Assembly (NCBI RefSeq): GCF_000244895.1
Contig: NZ_CM001441.1
Span: 1,302,001-1,366,000, forward strand
Reading direction: 5' to 3'
Length of the DNA stretch: 64,000 nucleotides
From: Desulfosporosinus youngiae DSM 17734
Lineage (GTDB): Bacteria > Bacillota > Desulfitobacteriia > Desulfitobacteriales > Desulfitobacteriaceae
Of the stretch, positions 2,316 to 10,317 are shown piece by piece. The translations under genes and the position numbers were made by a program. The notes under the pieces were generated by a model. It did not search any database. It saw only the letters and a list, made by a program, of their open reading frames with translations, and was not told the origin of the DNA. Position 1 is the first letter of the stretch. Every line of letters begins with the position of its first letter.

Positions 2316-3137
2316 ATGACCAGTTCAGCAACAAGGTTAAGTTTAGGTTTGGTTAGCGGAAGCGGTAGTCTCTGGAATATGACTCATCGGTTACAGGTTA
2401 CTACGTTCATTGGGGCCGGCGGTAAAACTACATGTCTCAAAACGCTGGCTCATGAAATTGAGTCACTGGGTTTTCCGGTTGTGGCAACGACTACAACAAA
2501 AGTATATCCGGAGGATCATATGATTCTTTGGAAAAATCTCAATCCTCCGCCCCAAAAAGCGCAAGGTGCTTGGTTTTGGTATGATAGAACAGAGGATGAA
2601 ACCGGAAAATGGATTGGTCCGCCGGTCACAGCTGTCGATGAGGGGATTGCAGTGGACAACCTGCGGCAACGGTATTGGGTGATTGAAGGAGATGGAGCCC
2701 GGGGGCACAAGTTAAAGTGCTGGGAGTCTTATGAACCGCAAATACCAAAGCTTACTGATTGTGCAGTGTTAGTGTCAGATCGTGGGTTGTGGGGAAGGAC
2801 TCTGCAATCTGAAGACATTCATAGATATCATCGTTGTATGGATCTTCCAGGGGACGTTTGGAATGCGGAAAGTGCGTGGCATTATTTTTTAAAGTCACCT
2901 GTATTTGCGTCGCAATATGCTCATATGTCTTGGGTTATTCTATTCAATGGCTCTGGAAAAGACCTTGTGAAGGAAAGTGTAAATGATCCGAGGAGTTCGT
3001 TGGATATCTTAAAGGATCTTTCAGGTAGATGGAAAGATATAAAACAAAACTCTATCGCGGCAAAGAGACCGAAGCATTTGCGCATAGCTGCAGGGGATGC
3101 CAAGGAAGGAGAACTCCAATGGTTAGATTTGTGGTAA
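2316..3137 (+). CDS. yqeC: Selenium-dependent hydroxylase accessory protein YqeC
   Basis: The 273-residue protein has a P-loop-like GAGGKTT at about residues 33-39 and the later WVIEGDGARG stretch typical of the YqeC family. YqeC co-occurs with yqeB and selD in genomes that carry selenium-dependent molybdenum hydroxylases, and is thought to help install selenium or mature the enzyme. Its biochemical step is not settled. The ATG at 2316 has a good TAGGAG site five bases upstream. The 3' end overlaps ygfJ by 19 bases, which points to translational coupling in one operon with xdh. Confidence 0.85.
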   Translation: MTSSATRLSLGLVSGSGSLWNMTHRLQVTTFIGAGGKTTCLKTLAHEIESLGFPVVATTTTKVYPEDHMILWKNLNPPPQKAQGAWFWYDRTEDETGKWIGPPVTAVDEGIAVDNLRQRYWVIEGDGARGHKLKCWESYEPQIPKLTDCAVLVSDRGLWGRTLQSEDIHRYHRCMDLPGDVWNAESAWHYFLKSPVFASQYAHMSWVILFNGSGKDLVKESVNDPRSSLDILKDLSGRWKDIKQNSIAAKRPKHLRIAAGDAKEGELQWLDLW

Positions 3138-3769
3138 TGGCAGCAGGTTTAGCTACTCGAATGGGTCGGGACAAACTCGCACTTCCCTGGAAAAAGACGA
3201 CTGTGCTGGGGCATGTTTTACAAACTGTTATTGAGGCCATCAAACTTCAAAAGAGCGTCTCTTCTCAATGCAGGATTGAAATCCATGTCGTTTCACGGCA
3301 ACCCATTGAAACGTATATTTCGGAAGATGATAAAAAAGAATTCGAAGAACGGGGTGGAATTTGGCATTATGCCCCTGGCCCTCGACCATTAGCTGAGACA
3401 ATTAAGATAGGGTTACAAGATCTGGGCAGTGATGTACATAGTTTGGCATTCTTACCCGGAGACCAGGTGGGAATAACGGTTCACGAGCTTTCGGACTGCT
3501 TGGATGAGGTACTTAGGTTCTTGCCGGACTTTCTTGTACCGATGGCTGGGGAAAAAACGGGATCACCTGTGTTTTTTCATAAACGATATATTCCGGAACT
3601 TTCAGAACTCCAAGGGGAGCAAGGCGGAAAAGTTGTTTTAAATCGATACCCGGAGCGGTGGCACAAGTTTCCCGTCGGGGAAAGCTTATTTTACGACGTC
3701 GATACTCCGGAGCAATACCAAGTGTTATTTGATAAACACGTGGACAAGGAGAAACGAGCAGATGAATAA
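3119..3769 (+). CDS. ygfJ: YgfJ/MocA-type molybdenum hydroxylase maturation nucleotidyltransferase
   Basis: The 216-residue protein starts MVRFVVMAAGLATRMGRDKL, the nucleotide-binding AAG-x(4)-RMG-x-DKL motif of MobA-like NTP transferases, and has FLPGDQ further in. The family, which includes MocA (molybdopterin cytidylyltransferase), prepares the molybdenum cofactor for xanthine-dehydrogenase-type enzymes. The position between yqeC and yqeB fits the YgfJ subgroup tied to selenium-dependent hydroxylases. The ATG at 3119 is chosen because it follows GGAAGGAG and because homology begins there. An upstream in-frame start would lie deep inside yqeC. It overlaps yqeC by 19 bases and yqeB by 8. Confidence 0.85.
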   Translation: MVRFVVMAAGLATRMGRDKLALPWKKTTVLGHVLQTVIEAIKLQKSVSSQCRIEIHVVSRQPIETYISEDDKKEFEERGGIWHYAPGPRPLAETIKIGLQDLGSDVHSLAFLPGDQVGITVHELSDCLDEVLRFLPDFLVPMAGEKTGSPVFFHKRYIPELSELQGEQGGKVVLNRYPERWHKFPVGESLFYDVDTPEQYQVLFDKHVDKEKRADE

Positions 3770-4607
3770 GATACATATGAATGGACCGGTAGTATTAATC
3801 CGTGGAGCAGGGGAACAAGCTTCGGGAGTAGGCTGGGCTTTGGCTAAAGCCGGTTTTCGAGTGGTGATGACGGAAGTAGCAAACCCCCTAATGGTTCGCT
3901 GGCCGGTATGTTTTGGGACGGCCATTGAAGAAGGCCGGTGGCAAGTTGAAGGAATCACGGCATGCCGTGCAGAGTCAGCGGCTTCAGATTGTCAAGCTGC
4001 CTGGCAGGCAGGGGAAATTCCAGTCTTAGTCGACCCTAATCTTGAAATGTTATCCGTAGTGAAACCTTTGATATTGGTCGATGCCATCATGGCCAAGAAA
4101 AACTTAGGAACGAAGCGGGGGATGGCCCCGATGACGATTGGCTTGGGACCGGGTTTTACAGCAGGCGATGATGTGGATATCGTCATAGAAACTAACCGCG
4201 GTCATAATCTGGGCAGGATTATTTATTCGGGATCGGCTCAACCCAATACAGGTATTCCGGGCGAGATCAAGGGTATTTCTAAAGATCGGGTTGTTTATTC
4301 TACCAAGACGGGGGTCTTTCGAGCAAAGCGAGATATCGGAGACCAGGTTTTAGCAGGAGATTGTCTGGGAGAAATCGATGATGGCATACAGACTGCAAAT
4401 GTCGTAACCCTGATTGATGGTGTTTTAAGAGGGTTATTAAGGACAAATACCCCTATTTCTGCAAATGTCAAGATTGGGGATATTGATCCTCGTGGGCAAG
4501 AAGAGTATTGTTGGACGATTTCTGAGAAAGCACGTGCTCTTGGGGCCGCAGTTTTATTAAGTATTCTGGAATCCGGTCTGATTAGTCCCCTGAGGGGCAA
4601 TGAATAG
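3762..4607 (+). CDS. yqeB: Selenium-dependent molybdenum hydroxylase system protein YqeB
   Basis: The 281-residue protein opens with a Rossmann-like VVLIRGAGEQASGVGWALA and continues RVVMTEVANPLMVRW, characteristic of YqeB. YqeB is one of the marker genes of the selenium-dependent molybdenum hydroxylase system alongside yqeC and selD. Its exact role in selenium delivery is unproven. The ATG at 3762 overlaps the ygfJ stop and has AAGGAG about 11 bases upstream. A second in-frame ATG at 3777 is possible. It closes the accessory operon. The following 286 bases to the riboswitch hold no convincing gene. Confidence 0.85.
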   Translation: MNKIHMNGPVVLIRGAGEQASGVGWALAKAGFRVVMTEVANPLMVRWPVCFGTAIEEGRWQVEGITACRAESAASDCQAAWQAGEIPVLVDPNLEMLSVVKPLILVDAIMAKKNLGTKRGMAPMTIGLGPGFTAGDDVDIVIETNRGHNLGRIIYSGSAQPNTGIPGEIKGISKDRVVYSTKTGVFRAKRDIGDQVLAGDCLGEIDDGIQTANVVTLIDGVLRGLLRTNTPISANVKIGDIDPRGQEEYCWTISEKARALGAAVLLSILESGLISPLRGNE

Positions 4608-4893
4608 AGTGATTACATAGTATCTTTAACATGAAGGTTTACGGCGGAAAGCAATTGCGAAGCTGCAAGAGTATATCGGAGCGCCAAGCTCATCGTCGGG
4701 GTAAAACGCGGGGACAGGTGCACTAAAATTATAGTAGACACACGTTTGGTTGGGTGGTTTTAACATAAATGTAAGTATATATTTTCGTTTTTAAAGAAGG
4801 ATAATTCAGATATCTATCGAATTTGTATATTGTTAAGTAAATGTTAAATCTAATGACATGCGTTAATCGTTATACAATTAAATAATGTTCTTT

Positions 4894-4960
4894 AACTCAT
4901 ATATCCTTGATAATTGGATCAGGGGTTTCTACGAAGCAACCGGAATTGCTTCTCTATGAG
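4894..4960 (+). promoter_or_regulatory. Purine riboswitch aptamer (guanine-class, C74)
   Basis: The three-way junction can be drawn by eye. P1 is CTCATA (4896-4901) with TATGAG (4955-4960). P2 is CCTTGAT/ATCAGGG around loop AATTGG. J2/3 is GTTTCTAC, matching the purine-aptamer consensus. P3 is GAAGCAA/TTGCTTC around loop CCGGAA, so the GG of L2 can pair with the CC of L3. J3/1 reads T-C-T before ATGAG, which puts C at the specificity position as in guanine/hypoxanthine riboswitches. The usual A before it is T here, a departure worth testing. It lies upstream of a xanthine dehydrogenase fragment and the purine permease. Confidence 0.9.
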
Positions 4961-5002
4961 CCAGAGATGGCCATAGAGTCTTGCAATAGAGGTTGCTTTT
5001 TT
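4934..5002 (+). terminator. Riboswitch expression-platform terminator
   Basis: Four helices stack into one long hairpin: AAGCAACC (4934-4941) with GGTTGCTT (4991-4998), ATTGC with GCAAT, CTCTATG (4952-4958) with CATAGAG (4972-4978), and GCCA with TGGC around a GAGA tetraloop. A run of six T follows directly. The left arm uses both strands of P3 and the 3' strand of P1 of the aptamer, so aptamer and terminator are mutually exclusive. Ligand binding should therefore permit read-through. Confidence 0.75.
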
Positions 5003-5029: not shown

Positions 5030-5485
5030 ATGGCTGAAGTTGAAGTAGATACTGAGACCGGTATAGTCCGAGTTCTCAAAGTGGTTGCAGTTCATGACGT
5101 AGGAAAAGCCCTGAATCAAACTCAAGTGGAAGGGCAGATCGCTGGCGGAGTAACCCAGGGAATAGGGCATGCTTTACTTGAGGACCTGGAATTACACGAG
5201 GGCAGGATCAAGAATCCGGCGCTTTCCAGTTATTTGATTCCCACGGCCTTAGATGTGCCTGACATAGAAGCTTTTTTTGTGGAAGATCCGGAATGCACCG
5301 GTCCTTTTGGTGCTAAGGGACTCGGCGAACGCGCGATGCTTCCGACCGTTGCGGCTATCATCAATGTTATTGATGATGCTGTGGGAGTGAGAATTACATC
5401 TTTGCCAGCGACGCCGGAAAAGATTCTGGAAGGGTTAGCAGAGAAGAAGGAGGTGACCAGTACCAACTCAGAGGGTAGGCGATAG
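5030..5485 (+). pseudogene. C-terminal fragment of a xanthine dehydrogenase molybdopterin subunit
   Basis: About 150 residues match only the extreme C-terminus of the large subunit: MAEVEVDTETG, VVAVHDVGKALNQ, VEGQIAGGVTQGIGHALLE and GPFGAKGLGERAM. Some 600 residues, including most of the molybdopterin site, are missing. Upstream bases are the riboswitch terminator, so the frame that stays open back to 4907 is not coding there. The ATG at 5030 has only a weak AAAGAG ahead of it. The protein differs from the intact xdh at the window start, so it comes from a second, conventional large subunit. It is most likely a deletion remnant still under the riboswitch. Confidence 0.75.
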
Positions 5486-5567
5486 GACTAATAATATTCC
5501 TTGGATTTGATTAAACTACAGACTAAGTAAAAAATAGGCTAAATCCATCTTAATGGGAGGGCTGTTC

Positions 5568-6944
5568 ATGTCAACCGTTACGAATAACAATCAGAAAAAG
5601 CCACCTGCAAACGAACCAATAGGGTTATTAGATCGATTCTTTCACTTGACAGAAATGGGTACCACCGTGCGTACGGAAATTCTGGCCGGAATAACAACCT
5701 TTGTTACCATGGCCTATATCTTGTTTGTAAATCCTAATATTTTGGCGGATGCAGGAATGCCTATTAATGCAACGTTTGCGGCAACGGCAATTGCCGGAGC
5801 TTTCGGCACCTTGATTATGGGTTTGTATGCGAACTATCCTATCGCGTTAGCTCCCGGTATGGGGCTAAATGCGTTCTTTACGTACACCGTTGTTCTAGGC
5901 ATGGGGCTTCCTTGGCAAACTGCTCTAGGTGCCGTCTTTATTTCAGGAGTTGTCTTTTTCTTAATGACTGTCACTAAAGTTCGGGAATGGATTATTGAAG
6001 GAATTCCTGAAGTTCTTCGTCTCTCAATTGGAGTAGGTATTGGTATATTTATTGCGTTTATCGGACTTAAGAATGGCGGAATTGTCGTTGCTGACTCCAA
6101 CACATTCGTGACATTAGGCGATATGAAATCGGGAAGTGCAATTGTGACTGTTTTTGGTTTGATTGTCACTGGATTTTTCATAGCCAGAAGAGTCAAAGGT
6201 GGCTTACTGATCGGTATTTTACTGACAACTCTTTTCAGCATGCTTATGGGTTATTCCTCATTACCAACGGGTTTGTCAAGTATTGTATCAGTTACTAATC
6301 CGTTTACAGTCATTGCTCCAGTGGCGCTTCAGCTTGATATTATAGGAGCTGTAAGCTACGGATTGATTTCTATCCTATTTGCATTTACGCTAGTCGATTT
6401 ATTTGATAATATTGGAACATTACTAGGAGTATCACGGAAGGCAGGACTTCTAGACAAAAATGGAAATCTGCCACGTGCCGGGAAAGCCCTAATGGCAGAC
6501 TCTTTTGGAACAATGTTTGGAGCCGCCGCTGGAACACCGACCGTTACATCCTATATTGAGAGTGCTTCCGGTGTAGCAGAAGGTGGAAAGACCGGGTTAA
6601 CTGCAGTCACGGTTGCTGGTCTATTTCTGGTATCGCTTATTTTTGCTCCGCTTGTCGGCTTAATCCCAGGAGAAGCAACTGCGCCTATCCTTATATTGGT
6701 TGGTACCATGATGATGAGTGAAGTAGTTCATATCAAGTTTGATGACTTTACAGAAGCTTTGCCGGCCTTTTTGACTATCGTGATGATGCCTTTAACCTCC
6801 TCTATCGCTCAAGGAATTGCGTTTGGGTTTATGTCTTATACGATCATCAAATTGCTCGCTGGAAGGCATAAGGAAAACAATCTAGTGTTGTATCTCTTCA
6901 CATTCCTCTTTATTGTTCATTTTGTAATTGGTGGCGGACATTAA
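5568..6944 (+). CDS. AzgA/PbuG-type purine (hypoxanthine/guanine/adenine) permease
   Basis: The 458-residue membrane protein starts with a polar stretch, then RTEILAGITTFVTMAYILFVNPNIL, the signature of the AzgA-like branch of nucleobase:cation symporters. Later hallmarks are APGMGLNAFF, FDNIGTLLG and GAAAGTPTVTSYIESASG. About 12-14 hydrophobic segments are evident. It would import purine bases across the cytoplasmic membrane. The ATG at 5568 follows GGGAGGGCTG. It lies 83 bases after the xanthine dehydrogenase fragment and about 570 bases after the purine riboswitch, with no terminator in between. It is therefore probably riboswitch-controlled. Confidence 0.9.
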   Translation: MSTVTNNNQKKPPANEPIGLLDRFFHLTEMGTTVRTEILAGITTFVTMAYILFVNPNILADAGMPINATFAATAIAGAFGTLIMGLYANYPIALAPGMGLNAFFTYTVVLGMGLPWQTALGAVFISGVVFFLMTVTKVREWIIEGIPEVLRLSIGVGIGIFIAFIGLKNGGIVVADSNTFVTLGDMKSGSAIVTVFGLIVTGFFIARRVKGGLLIGILLTTLFSMLMGYSSLPTGLSSIVSVTNPFTVIAPVALQLDIIGAVSYGLISILFAFTLVDLFDNIGTLLGVSRKAGLLDKNGNLPRAGKALMADSFGTMFGAAAGTPTVTSYIESASGVAEGGKTGLTAVTVAGLFLVSLIFAPLVGLIPGEATAPILILVGTMMMSEVVHIKFDDFTEALPAFLTIVMMPLTSSIAQGIAFGFMSYTIIKLLAGRHKENNLVLYLFTFLFIVHFVIGGGH

Positions 6945-7030: not shown

Positions 7031-7137
7031 TGCTGCGCATGGCACGTTGCGGGCTCGGGTATGAAATACGAAAATGCTTGGCGCCTTTTGATTGGTGAAG
7101 AGCGCCTTTGGCATGCAAGTGGAAGGGTGGAAATAGG

Positions 7138-8469
7138 ATGCGTGTGCTCTTTAAGAATGCAACTATTGTAACCATGAATGCTGGACGTGAGGTTATCCAA
7201 GGTGATCTGCTGGTGGATGACACGCAGATCGCAGCAGTTGGCGGGGTCATTGAACAGCCTGCTGATCAAATAATCGACCTGAATGGAGATTTACTGATAC
7301 CTGGTTTGATTCAAACTCACATACATTTGTGTCAGACATTATATCGAGGTCAGGCGGATGACCTGGAGCTTTTAGATTGGCTTAGACAGCGAATTTGGCC
7401 GCTGGAAGGCGGACATGATCCGGAATCCCTATATGACTCCGCTTTATTAGGCATCGGAGAATTGTTCCTGGGAGGGACAACGACGATTGTGGATATGGAA
7501 ACCGTGCATCATACAGAACATGCCTTTGAGGCGATCCTGGCCAGCGGCTTGAGAGCTTTGAGCGGAAAGGTTATGATGGATGACTGCAATGGGGATCTTC
7601 CGGCTTCCTTACAAGAAACGACGGAAAACTCTCTGCAAGAAAGCGTCGATTTATATGAAAAATATCACGGAAAAGGAAATGGGCGGCTCGAAGTTGCGTT
7701 TACCCCCCGTTTCGTTATTTCCTGTACGGATACATTATTAAAAGAGGTTTCGCGTTTGGCCCGTGCAAAAAATGCGTTTGTGCATACACATGCTTCCGAA
7801 AACCGATCAGAAATCCAGGTTGTAGAGAGTACGCGAGGGATGCGCAATATTGTCTATTTGGATAAAGTCGGTTTAACCGGTCCAAAGCTGATATTAGCCC
7901 ATTGCATCTGGCTTGATGAGGCGGAAAAGGAAATTTTGGTCCAGACCAAGACGAGGATTTCTCATTGTCCCTCCTCAAATTTGAAACTGGCCTCGGGAAT
8001 CGCGCCGATTCCCGAACTTATGAAACGCGGGGCAGAGGTTTCTTTAAGTGCGGACGGGGCGCCCTGCGGCAATAATCTGGATGGGTTCCGGGAAATGCGG
8101 CATGCGGCCCTAATTCAGAAACCGTTGCATGGACCGACCGTTATGCCTGCGCGTGAGGTTTTTGAAATGGCGACCCTTGGCGGTGCCCGTGCAATCGGTC
8201 ATGAACATGATCTGGGAAGTCTGGAAGTTGGGAAAAAAGCAGATTTGGCAGCGGTAAGTTTGCAGGGGTTACACACTTGGCCGGTCGAGCATGTGGATGT
8301 TTATTCACAATTAGTCTATCAGGCAGTTTCCTCTGACGTACGTCTGACCATGGTGGATGGACAAATAGTTATGAAAGATCGGCAGCTGCTGACGATAGAT
8401 GTTCCCAAGCTTAAGATAAGCTCGACTCGAAGTTTGAACCGGGTCATGAAAAGGATAGGCCTTGTGTAG
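7138..8469 (+). CDS. Amidohydrolase, guanine deaminase/chlorohydrolase (SsnA/MtaD-like) family
   Basis: The 443-residue metal-dependent hydrolase has the HIHLCQT metal motif at about residues 60-66, HTHASEN, LAHCIWLDE and the aspartate motif SLSADGAPCGNN. This order defines the ATZ/TRZ/guanine-deaminase branch that deaminates purines, 5'-deoxyadenosine or methylthioadenosine. Placement between a purine permease and adenine deaminase suggests a purine substrate, possibly guanine. SsnA-like members are also regular neighbours of selenium-dependent hydroxylases. The ATG at 7138 follows GGAAGGGTGG. An upstream in-frame TTG (7108) lacks a site. The substrate is not decidable from sequence. Confidence 0.8.
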   Translation: MRVLFKNATIVTMNAGREVIQGDLLVDDTQIAAVGGVIEQPADQIIDLNGDLLIPGLIQTHIHLCQTLYRGQADDLELLDWLRQRIWPLEGGHDPESLYDSALLGIGELFLGGTTTIVDMETVHHTEHAFEAILASGLRALSGKVMMDDCNGDLPASLQETTENSLQESVDLYEKYHGKGNGRLEVAFTPRFVISCTDTLLKEVSRLARAKNAFVHTHASENRSEIQVVESTRGMRNIVYLDKVGLTGPKLILAHCIWLDEAEKEILVQTKTRISHCPSSNLKLASGIAPIPELMKRGAEVSLSADGAPCGNNLDGFREMRHAALIQKPLHGPTVMPAREVFEMATLGGARAIGHEHDLGSLEVGKKADLAAVSLQGLHTWPVEHVDVYSQLVYQAVSSDVRLTMVDGQIVMKDRQLLTIDVPKLKISSTRSLNRVMKRIGLV

Positions 8470-8565
8470 GGGGCTTGCCACACAGCACTCGTGGTCTGCA
8501 GCGTACATCCGCCGTTTATGGATGGACTTAGTGTCCCCGGAGCCATGGACAGCGGGGGGAAGCGT

Positions 8566-10317
8566 ATGAGTGGGGAGAGTAGATTGATAATGCCAAGCTT
8601 TAAGCAGAGAATGGATGAGGCCCGCGGCCTGGCTAAGATTGACTTAGTTCTTAAACATGCTAAGTTAGTTAATGTCTTTTCAGGAGAAATCCATGAAACG
8701 GACATTGGAATCCATCGGGGTAATTTTGTGGGTATCGGGAAGTTCGGGGAAGCGGAAACAGAACTGGATTTAAGCGGCAAGTATGTTGTTCCGGGCTTGA
8801 TTGACGGGCATGTTCATATTGAAAGCTCGCATCTTTGTCCGGAAGAATTCTGTTCGCTTCTTCTTTCCCATGGTGTAACGACCGCTGTGGTTGACCCCCA
8901 TGAAATCGCTAATGTCCTGGGGGTTAAGGGAATTCAATATATCCTTGATAGTGTTGAGGACTTACCCTTTAATACCTTTGTCGCCCTTCCTTCATGTGTT
9001 CCGGCAACGGATTTGGAAACCTCCGGGGCGAGTCTTGGAGCGAAGGAATTATCACAATTTGTTGATCATCCAAAAGTGATAGGCTTGGGAGAGGTAATGG
9101 ACTATTTGGGCGTAATTCAGGCCAAGAAGGGTATGGTGGAAAAGTTAGAACTCCCTGTGGGATTTTTCGATGGTCATGCCCCGGGCATATCCGCGCAAGA
9201 TTTAAATGCCTATTTTCTGGCGGGAATTCATACGGAACATGAGTGTTCTACAGTTGAAGAGGCCAGAGAACGTTTGAGGCGAGGATTTCACATAATGCTT
9301 CGAGAGGGAAGCGCTGCCAAAAACCTATTAGATCTTTTGCCTGCCGTGACCCCGCAAAATTCCGGACAATGTCTTCTGGTAACGGATGACCGTCACCCCA
9401 GTGATCTAATGAATGAGGGGAGTATAGATCATCTTGTGCGTATGGCGATAAAGGCGGGCATGGACCCTATTCAAGTCATCCAAATGGCGACGATTAACGC
9501 GGCACGTGCCATCGGGCTTGCTCATCTGGGAGCAGTAGCACCCGGATATCAGGCGGACTTCGTTGTTTTGGATGATCTTAACCGATTTGAGATTAAGGAA
9601 GTTTATTGGCGCGGGATAAAACAAAGTGGAAGCAAAGAACGACCGCGATTTCCGCGCTCCGGCTGTGCGGGACTTAAAGGAAGTATCCATCTTGGAGAAT
9701 GGTCTTCCGCCAAGCTCAGGGTCTTGGCCAATGGCGAAACGAATGAAGGTCTTGCCCGGGTCCGGGTTATTGGAGTCCAAGAACATTCTTTAGTAACGTC
9801 TGAGTTGATTCGGGAATTACCGGTTAAAAATGGCCTTATCAATCCAGATCCATCTCAAAGGATCGCCAAGCTGGCTGTGTTGGAACGACATCACGAAACG
9901 GGTAATGTTGGTCTCGGTTTTGTCGAAGGATTGGGCTTGCGAAAGGGGGCTATCGCTTCGACGGTTGCCCATGACTCGCATAATTTGGTGGTTGCAGGGA
10001 TGAGCGATGAAGAGATGCACCTCGCAGTTATGACCTGTGTCGAGATGGGAGGTGGCCTTTGTCTAGTCGATGGAAATCAGGTGATTGGGAAGCTTCCTTT
10101 GCCGATAGCAGGACTTATGACCGATCAGGATGCCGAAGCAGTCGCACGAATCCTGAGTGAATTGCATGAGAGGGCAGTCTGGCTGGGAATCAGTGAAAAG
10201 GTCGATCCGTTTATGACCCTGGCCTTTCTTTCTCTGCCCGTCATTCCGTCAATAAAACTGACAGACTTAGGCTTAGTGGATGTGGAGCATTTTCAAATAA
10301 TTTCGGCTGTTCTATAA
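8566..10317 (+). CDS. ade: Adenine deaminase
   Basis: The 583-residue protein has the full-length bacterial adenine deaminase architecture. Motifs are PGLIDGHVHIESSHL (metal ligands), DPHEIANVLG, DGHAPGISA, HTEHECSTVEEA, LVTDDRHPSDL and the C-terminal VAHDSHNLVVAG. It converts adenine to hypoxanthine plus ammonia in the cytoplasm, feeding the xanthine dehydrogenase encoded upstream. The ATG at 8566 is selected because GGGGGAAG lies just ahead. The frame stays open about 75 bases further up without a ribosome-binding site. It sits 97 bases after the amidohydrolase and is probably cotranscribed with it. A short hairpin (GGTCTGG/CCAGACC, 10319-10335) follows the stop but has no T-run. Confidence 0.93.
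   Translation: MSGESRLIMPSFKQRMDEARGLAKIDLVLKHAKLVNVFSGEIHETDIGIHRGNFVGIGKFGEAETELDLSGKYVVPGLIDGHVHIESSHLCPEEFCSLLLSHGVTTAVVDPHEIANVLGVKGIQYILDSVEDLPFNTFVALPSCVPATDLETSGASLGAKELSQFVDHPKVIGLGEVMDYLGVIQAKKGMVEKLELPVGFFDGHAPGISAQDLNAYFLAGIHTEHECSTVEEARERLRRGFHIMLREGSAAKNLLDLLPAVTPQNSGQCLLVTDDRHPSDLMNEGSIDHLVRMAIKAGMDPIQVIQMATINAARAIGLAHLGAVAPGYQADFVVLDDLNRFEIKEVYWRGIKQSGSKERPRFPRSGCAGLKGSIHLGEWSSAKLRVLANGETNEGLARVRVIGVQEHSLVTSELIRELPVKNGLINPDPSQRIAKLAVLERHHETGNVGLGFVEGLGLRKGAIASTVAHDSHNLVVAGMSDEEMHLAVMTCVEMGGGLCLVDGNQVIGKLPLPIAGLMTDQDAEAVARILSELHERAVWLGISEKVDPFMTLAFLSLPVIPSIKLTDLGLVDVEHFQIISAVL

Follow-up and report, generated by a model that had tools for sequence, protein, structure and literature searches.

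In open-access papers, guanine-I riboswitches are described as turning salvage and uptake genes OFF. For adenine, guanine-II, xanthine-II and 2'-dG-III riboswitches, ON behavior has been either reported or predicted. In the adenine-sensing pbuE riboswitch, aptamer and expression platform overlap in P3 and the RNA acts as an ON switch (PMC9756952), using a P4 hairpin as nucleator or toehold (PMC7707468). Two variants of the purine scaffold are distinguished by their junctions: guanine-II RNAs have a one-base insertion in J2-3 and an insertion in J3-1 and keep U51, and xanthine-II RNAs combine U51G with insertions in J2-3 and J3-1 (PMC9295807). In the open-access literature we did not find a natural guanine-class ON switch with canonical junctions in front of xanthine dehydrogenase genes, an absence that constitutes weak evidence.

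Here we describe an RNA encoded in a 64-kb stretch of the Desulfosporosinus youngiae genome (the window; coordinates below are on its + strand unless another locus is given). It is very probably a transcriptional ON switch with a purine aptamer of the guanine class.

Aptamer and expression platform

In a covariance-model search, the Rfam Purine family (RF00167) matches positions 4877–4976 over the full length of the model (1–102 of 102) with 66.3 bits (E 2.1e-9), compared with a gathering cut-off of 37 bits. This is the sole Rfam RNA at gathering level within the window. At the level of sequence, the match confirms the first-pass annotation of a purine riboswitch at this site. The extent given there is also right: it ends at 5002 together with the U tract, and P1 of the aptamer begins at 4896.

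P1 is formed by CUCAUA (4896–4901) and UAUGAG (4955–4960). The 5' strand is invariant in the genus save for one mismatch, and the 3' strand is common to P1 and the terminator. The P2 hairpin (4905–4911/4918–4924, spanning 4905–4924) shows both-sided changes across the genus and carries the loop L2, AAUUGG. The P3 hairpin, GAAGCAA/UUGCUUC (4933–4939/4946–4952, spanning 4933–4952), carries the loop L3, CCGGAA. Each loop is one base below consensus length, and the GG of L2 and the CC of L3 form the loop-loop contact. J2/3, GUUUCUAC (4925–4932), is canonical and retains U47 and U51. Alignment to the RF00167 model places C74 at 4954, where it is predicted to be the ligand-pairing specificity base, of the guanine/hypoxanthine/xanthine type. 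It is preceded in J3/1 by U73 (4953), a position that is usually A and that is fixed as U in the genus, and the top pair of P3 (54-72) is G-C, where C-G is usual. The canonical J2/3, the loop-loop contact, the specificity base C and the U before it had all been called in the initial reading of this DNA, and each is present.

An intrinsic terminator occupies 4933–5002, with a hairpin (4933–4999) that runs into a U tract (4997–5002), and its formation excludes P1 and P3. Folded to minimum energy, the leader adopts this long hairpin in place of the aptamer. The terminator folds at −35.1 kcal/mol, compared with −16.3 ± 3.0 kcal/mol for shuffled sequences (z −6.3), and none of 200 versions with the downstream part shuffled folds as well. 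Its strands comprise the 5' strand of P3 with the CC of L3, the 3' strand of P3, J3/1 (including C74) and the 3' strand of P1, which bears out the earlier proposal that the terminator consumes both P3 strands and the P1 3' strand. At its tip is a small P4-like nucleator hairpin, GCCA-gaga-UGGC (4960–4971), that is retained in most copies in the genus. Enforcing P1 and P3 costs the fold 17.3 kcal/mol in stability and leaves the downstream RNA with only this hairpin plus a weak one of 5 bp. The 5-bp hairpin (GCAAU/GUUGC) lies beside the U tract and can form even with the aptamer intact; in these models it might permit some termination in the ligand-bound state.

Step-wise folding, which like the other folds uses thermodynamic minimum-energy models that ignore kinetics, tertiary structure and pausing, has the aptamer as the minimum to about +76. 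P1 is then invaded from +78–80 via the P4 hairpin, at a cost of about 7.5 kcal/mol, invasion of P3 starts at +94, and by +102–108 the terminator has formed in full. Since the terminator uses P3, J3/1 and the 3' strand of P1, it and the intact, ligand-bound aptamer are mutually exclusive. This exclusivity points to an ON switch of pbuE-like build.

A promoter scan did not identify a convincing sigma-70 promoter. A GAATA(A/G)TG-like box just 5' of P1 (about 4875–4890) recurs in relatives, many of which have a CGAATA box further upstream, and neither box is accompanied by a clear sigma-70 −35 element.

Conservation within and beyond the genus

At least one purine riboswitch was identified in each of the 30 genus genomes searched; the genome studied here has six. 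This genome also carries a separate, xanthine-II-like RNA (L065; G000:C1:3811802-3811904, − strand). Like L063 and L064, it has U51G, two extra bases in J2/3 and an insertion in J3/1, the hallmarks of xanthine-II. Its terminator reaches into P3, and it precedes a gene for an XdhA-type xanthine dehydrogenase (1230 bits). The genus is not among the published xanthine-II hosts named (PMC9295807).

The riboswitch at 4896–5002 is represented in the genus by 26 copies (the window copy and 25 others) with 20 distinct sequences. The terminator reaches into P3 in all 26 (20/20 distinct sequences), and its fold is ahead of the aptamer fold by 12.6–27.5 kcal/mol in 25 of them. The exception is G015, where the terminator is weak: the margin is 3.7 kcal/mol and shuffled downstream sequence reaches it in 5 of 200 cases, whereas shuffling never matches the terminator in the other copies. 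Across the 26 copies, the downstream part folds weakly on its own, at −1.3 to −7.6 kcal/mol, when P1 and P3 are enforced. The copy in G027 (L055) has a J2/3 that is one base short (GUUUUAC) and an intact terminator; this aptamer may be broken. G022 has, in tandem, a degenerate second copy (G022t/L113) that precedes the main one by about 285 bases. Several of its core bases are changed, and it is possibly a relic.

Orthologues in other genera were found with a covariance model built from the genus aptamers (R1). There are six, from other genera of two families (G030 and G031 of g2, G039 and G040 of g6, G042b of g8 and G047b of g11). All directly precede orthologous genes for the FAD and Mo subunits of xanthine dehydrogenase, and in all of them a terminator of the same type is more stable than the aptamer fold by 13–22 kcal/mol. 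Between the genus and the orthologues there is both-sided compensation within the terminator at positions 54, 55, 57, 58, 59, 72, 73, 81, 82 and 83, and C74 pairs with a terminator G in all 32 copies (26 from the genus and six orthologues). The shared terminator type and the compensation indicate that the ON layout is common across genera, and the pbuE-like ON architecture suggested in the first-pass annotation gains strong comparative support from them.

Similar arrangements occur beyond the order. In family f16, guanine-class RNAs with A73 and an ON-like layout precede xanthine dehydrogenase-type genes, clearly so for L221 and L225 and likely for L211, L212, L216 and L229. In family f41, the same is seen for L202. 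Comparable ON switches thus appear to recur in other Bacillota families.

U73 is combined with G54-C72 in all 20 distinct genus aptamers, and the six orthologues have A73 with C54-G72 within the same ON layout. Among the xanthine dehydrogenase-linked copies compared, U73 is seen only in the genus. Other distinct aptamers mostly have A73 (84 with C54-G72) and U73 is rare. We identified it outside the genus in L186, before an NCS2 permease gene, and in L232 (family f42), before guaA (GMP synthase, named from the start of the sequence only). G73 is recurrent in one large-genome family, f25. Two RNAs of this family (L176 and L184) have G73 aptamers and terminators into P3 and P1 and precede a gene for an FAD-dependent protein; for the protein that follows L176, we did not find a close NCBIfam match. 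Elsewhere, L102 (G042a) has G73 with G54-C72 and adjoins no recognised purine genes.

Gene context and proposed mechanism

Relatives with an intact operon carry, downstream of the riboswitch, genes for the FAD, 2Fe-2S and Mo subunits of xanthine dehydrogenase and then, where the DNA examined reaches far enough, a permease gene. Here, about 3.1 kb of this operon is deleted. Of the first gene, which is lost, the start codon is fused in frame, through a shared ATG, to the end of the Mo-subunit gene, leaving a remnant that encodes its last 151 codons (5030–5485; the C-terminal part only of Pfam MoCoBD_2, with the deletion junction placed by comparison with relatives). Next are genes for an NCS2-type purine/xanthine permease (5553–6944; Xan_ur_permease, 171.8 bits), an amidohydrolase (7108–8469; NF005557, the 5'-deoxyadenosine deaminase model) and adenine deaminase (8491–10317; TIGR01178, 602 bits, cut-off 472). 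Upstream, and not under the riboswitch, is a selenium-dependent xanthine dehydrogenase gene (149–2197; TIGR03311, 1132 bits), followed by the accessory genes yqeC, mocA-like and yqeB (2316–4607; TIGR03172 and TIGR03309 above cut-off, MobA-like NTP transferase by Pfam). The riboswitch had been described as lying ahead of purine oxidation and permease genes: this holds for the permease, but the oxidation genes are found in relatives and are reduced here to the remnant.

The amidohydrolase is a probable purine deaminase. An 8-oxoguanine sensor was considered because the protein resembles deaminases, and is disfavored, as it scores 676 bits with the 5'-deoxyadenosine deaminase model (cut-off 522) versus 296 bits with that for 8-oxoguanine deaminase (cut-off 532). 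In family f25, two guanine-type aptamers with G73 (L175 and L182), whose terminators incorporate the P1 3' strand, precede a homologue of the amidohydrolase with 58% identity. The enzyme named 5'-deoxyadenosine deaminase may in truth be a purine deaminase whose gene a purine riboswitch controls.

We propose that the aptamer (P1-P2-P3, 4896–4960) is transcribed first and that binding of a purine able to pair with C74 (guanine, hypoxanthine or xanthine) would lock P1 and P3. The downstream RNA would then form weak hairpins only, and RNA polymerase would read through. With no ligand, the small P4 hairpin would nucleate strand invasion, first into P1 and afterwards into P3, and the long hairpin ending in the U tract (4997–5002) would terminate transcription. 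In relatives, the switch would induce the xanthine dehydrogenase and permease operon when purines are plentiful. In this strain, it would most likely control the permease, amidohydrolase and adenine deaminase genes. The predicted mechanism of ON switching is well supported by comparison; the identity of the ligand, the direction of switching in the cell and the extent of the operon are what we infer. A guanine-like ligand that turns on genes for purine breakdown would be the opposite of most guanine switches. If this is true, one pocket serves both directions and the platform sets the direction, matched to catabolic or anabolic genes.

The RNA would be an OFF switch if, like xpt and yxjA, it had an independent terminator whose use is promoted by ligand. 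OFF is the commonest behavior of guanine riboswitches in the literature (PMC9295807), and the terminator is separate from the aptamer in 75 of the 114 other distinct purine riboswitches examined (the automatic classifier calls some distant U tracts ON, and its ON count among these is an upper bound). However, all 20 distinct genus copies lack a separate terminator: their single U-tract hairpin draws on P3, J3/1 and P1, and enforcing the aptamer leaves only weak hairpins. We consider an OFF switch highly improbable. The loss of about 3.1 kb of the operon and the reduction of the first open reading frame to a remnant could also mean that the riboswitch has fallen out of use here and is decaying, as may be seen elsewhere in the loss of a core base in G027 and in the degenerate tandem copy in G022. 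This is improbable too, given that the aptamer core and terminator are intact and the copy scores well for the group (100 bits with R1). Moreover, the remnant is still in frame and is followed by intact permease and deaminase genes, and seven more genus members that have lost the dehydrogenase (G010, G016, G017, G019, G020, G027 and G028) retain the riboswitch. The ON switch, in use for the remaining genes, is thus the reading that we prefer.

Position 73 and relation to known riboswitches

In structures of adenine aptamers, A73 forms a triple with A52-U22 over the pocket (PMC6817744), and it contacts or stacks with A24 against the 54-72 pair (PMC9588036). A joint change of 73 and 54-72 is therefore structurally sensible, and we infer that U73 could form a U.A-U triple. 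Position 73 is not in contact with the pairing edge of the ligand. The ligand would be guanine, hypoxanthine or xanthine. The 26 genus copies and the A73 orthologues together provide a natural test of the role of position 73 over the ligand pocket.

Could U73 and the flipped 54-72 pair shift the ligand (e.g., to xanthine, hypoxanthine or 8-oxoguanine) on the same ON architecture, and so define a distinct variant class? The two features are fixed in the genus and missing from the A73 orthologues, position 73 lies over the pocket and contacts A24 next to the 54-72 pair, the gene context is purine-catabolic, and other purine-riboswitch variants with altered ligands exist (PMC9295807). Yet the direct contacts U22, U47, U51 and C74 are unchanged, orthologues with A73 precede the same operon, and U73 is also found upstream of guaA and of a permease gene, as expected of ordinary guanine switches. 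Judging by the guaA case, an aptamer may carry U73 and still sense guanine, so U73 need not mean a new ligand; this somewhat weakens the proposal in the first-pass annotation that the U before C74 could alter ligand choice. In the terminator the partner of U73 is A or G and that of A73 is U, so U73 may be a neutral co-change. A shift of ligand is therefore unlikely in our view. There is only a very slim chance that the RNA belongs to guanine-II or xanthine-II, published variants with which it shares the scaffold, a predicted ON direction and a setting of purine salvage or degradation genes (PMC9295807). U51 is present in place of the U51G of xanthine-II, insertions are lacking in J2-3 and J3-1, and the junction lengths are those of guanine-I provided that G54-C72 is paired, in contrast to L180. 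The RNAs that fit the guanine-II and xanthine-II descriptions (L180; L005/L065, L177, L179 and L188) differ from it.

A guanine-class ON switch with an aptamer of canonical junction length accordingly remains our reading. With little confidence, we also raise the conjecture of an undescribed, widespread branch in which guanine-class aptamers with canonical junctions, on pbuE-like ON platforms, induce purine oxidation in Bacillota, with U73/G54-C72 tuning the pocket in this genus to a breakdown intermediate such as xanthine or hypoxanthine over guanine.

Among described systems, the RNA is like guanine-I riboswitches (RF00167; xpt-pbuX, yxjA) in its aptamer match, in its junction lengths and in having C74 together with U22, U47 and U51. 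It is unlike them in its ON rather than OFF layout and in U73 with G54-C72, as opposed to A73 with C54-G72. A73 is usual in the guanine-I consensus and makes no direct ligand contact, and the position varies elsewhere too (G73, U73). We therefore classify the RNA as a variant within RF00167 rather than a typical guanine-I riboswitch. In its platform, it resembles the transcriptional ON switch pbuE of B. subtilis, where ligand prevents termination (PMC9756952, PMC7707468). Both have a terminator that overlaps P3 and a P4 nucleator hairpin, and here the terminator strands derive from the P1 3' strand and P3 and exclude the aptamer. The two differ in the ligand-pairing base, which is C here and U in pbuE, and in the genes that follow. 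The combination of a guanine-type aptamer with a pbuE-like ON platform has a counterpart in the engineered chimera of the xpt guanine aptamer and the pbuE platform (PMC7707468); unlike that chimera, the RNA described here is natural.
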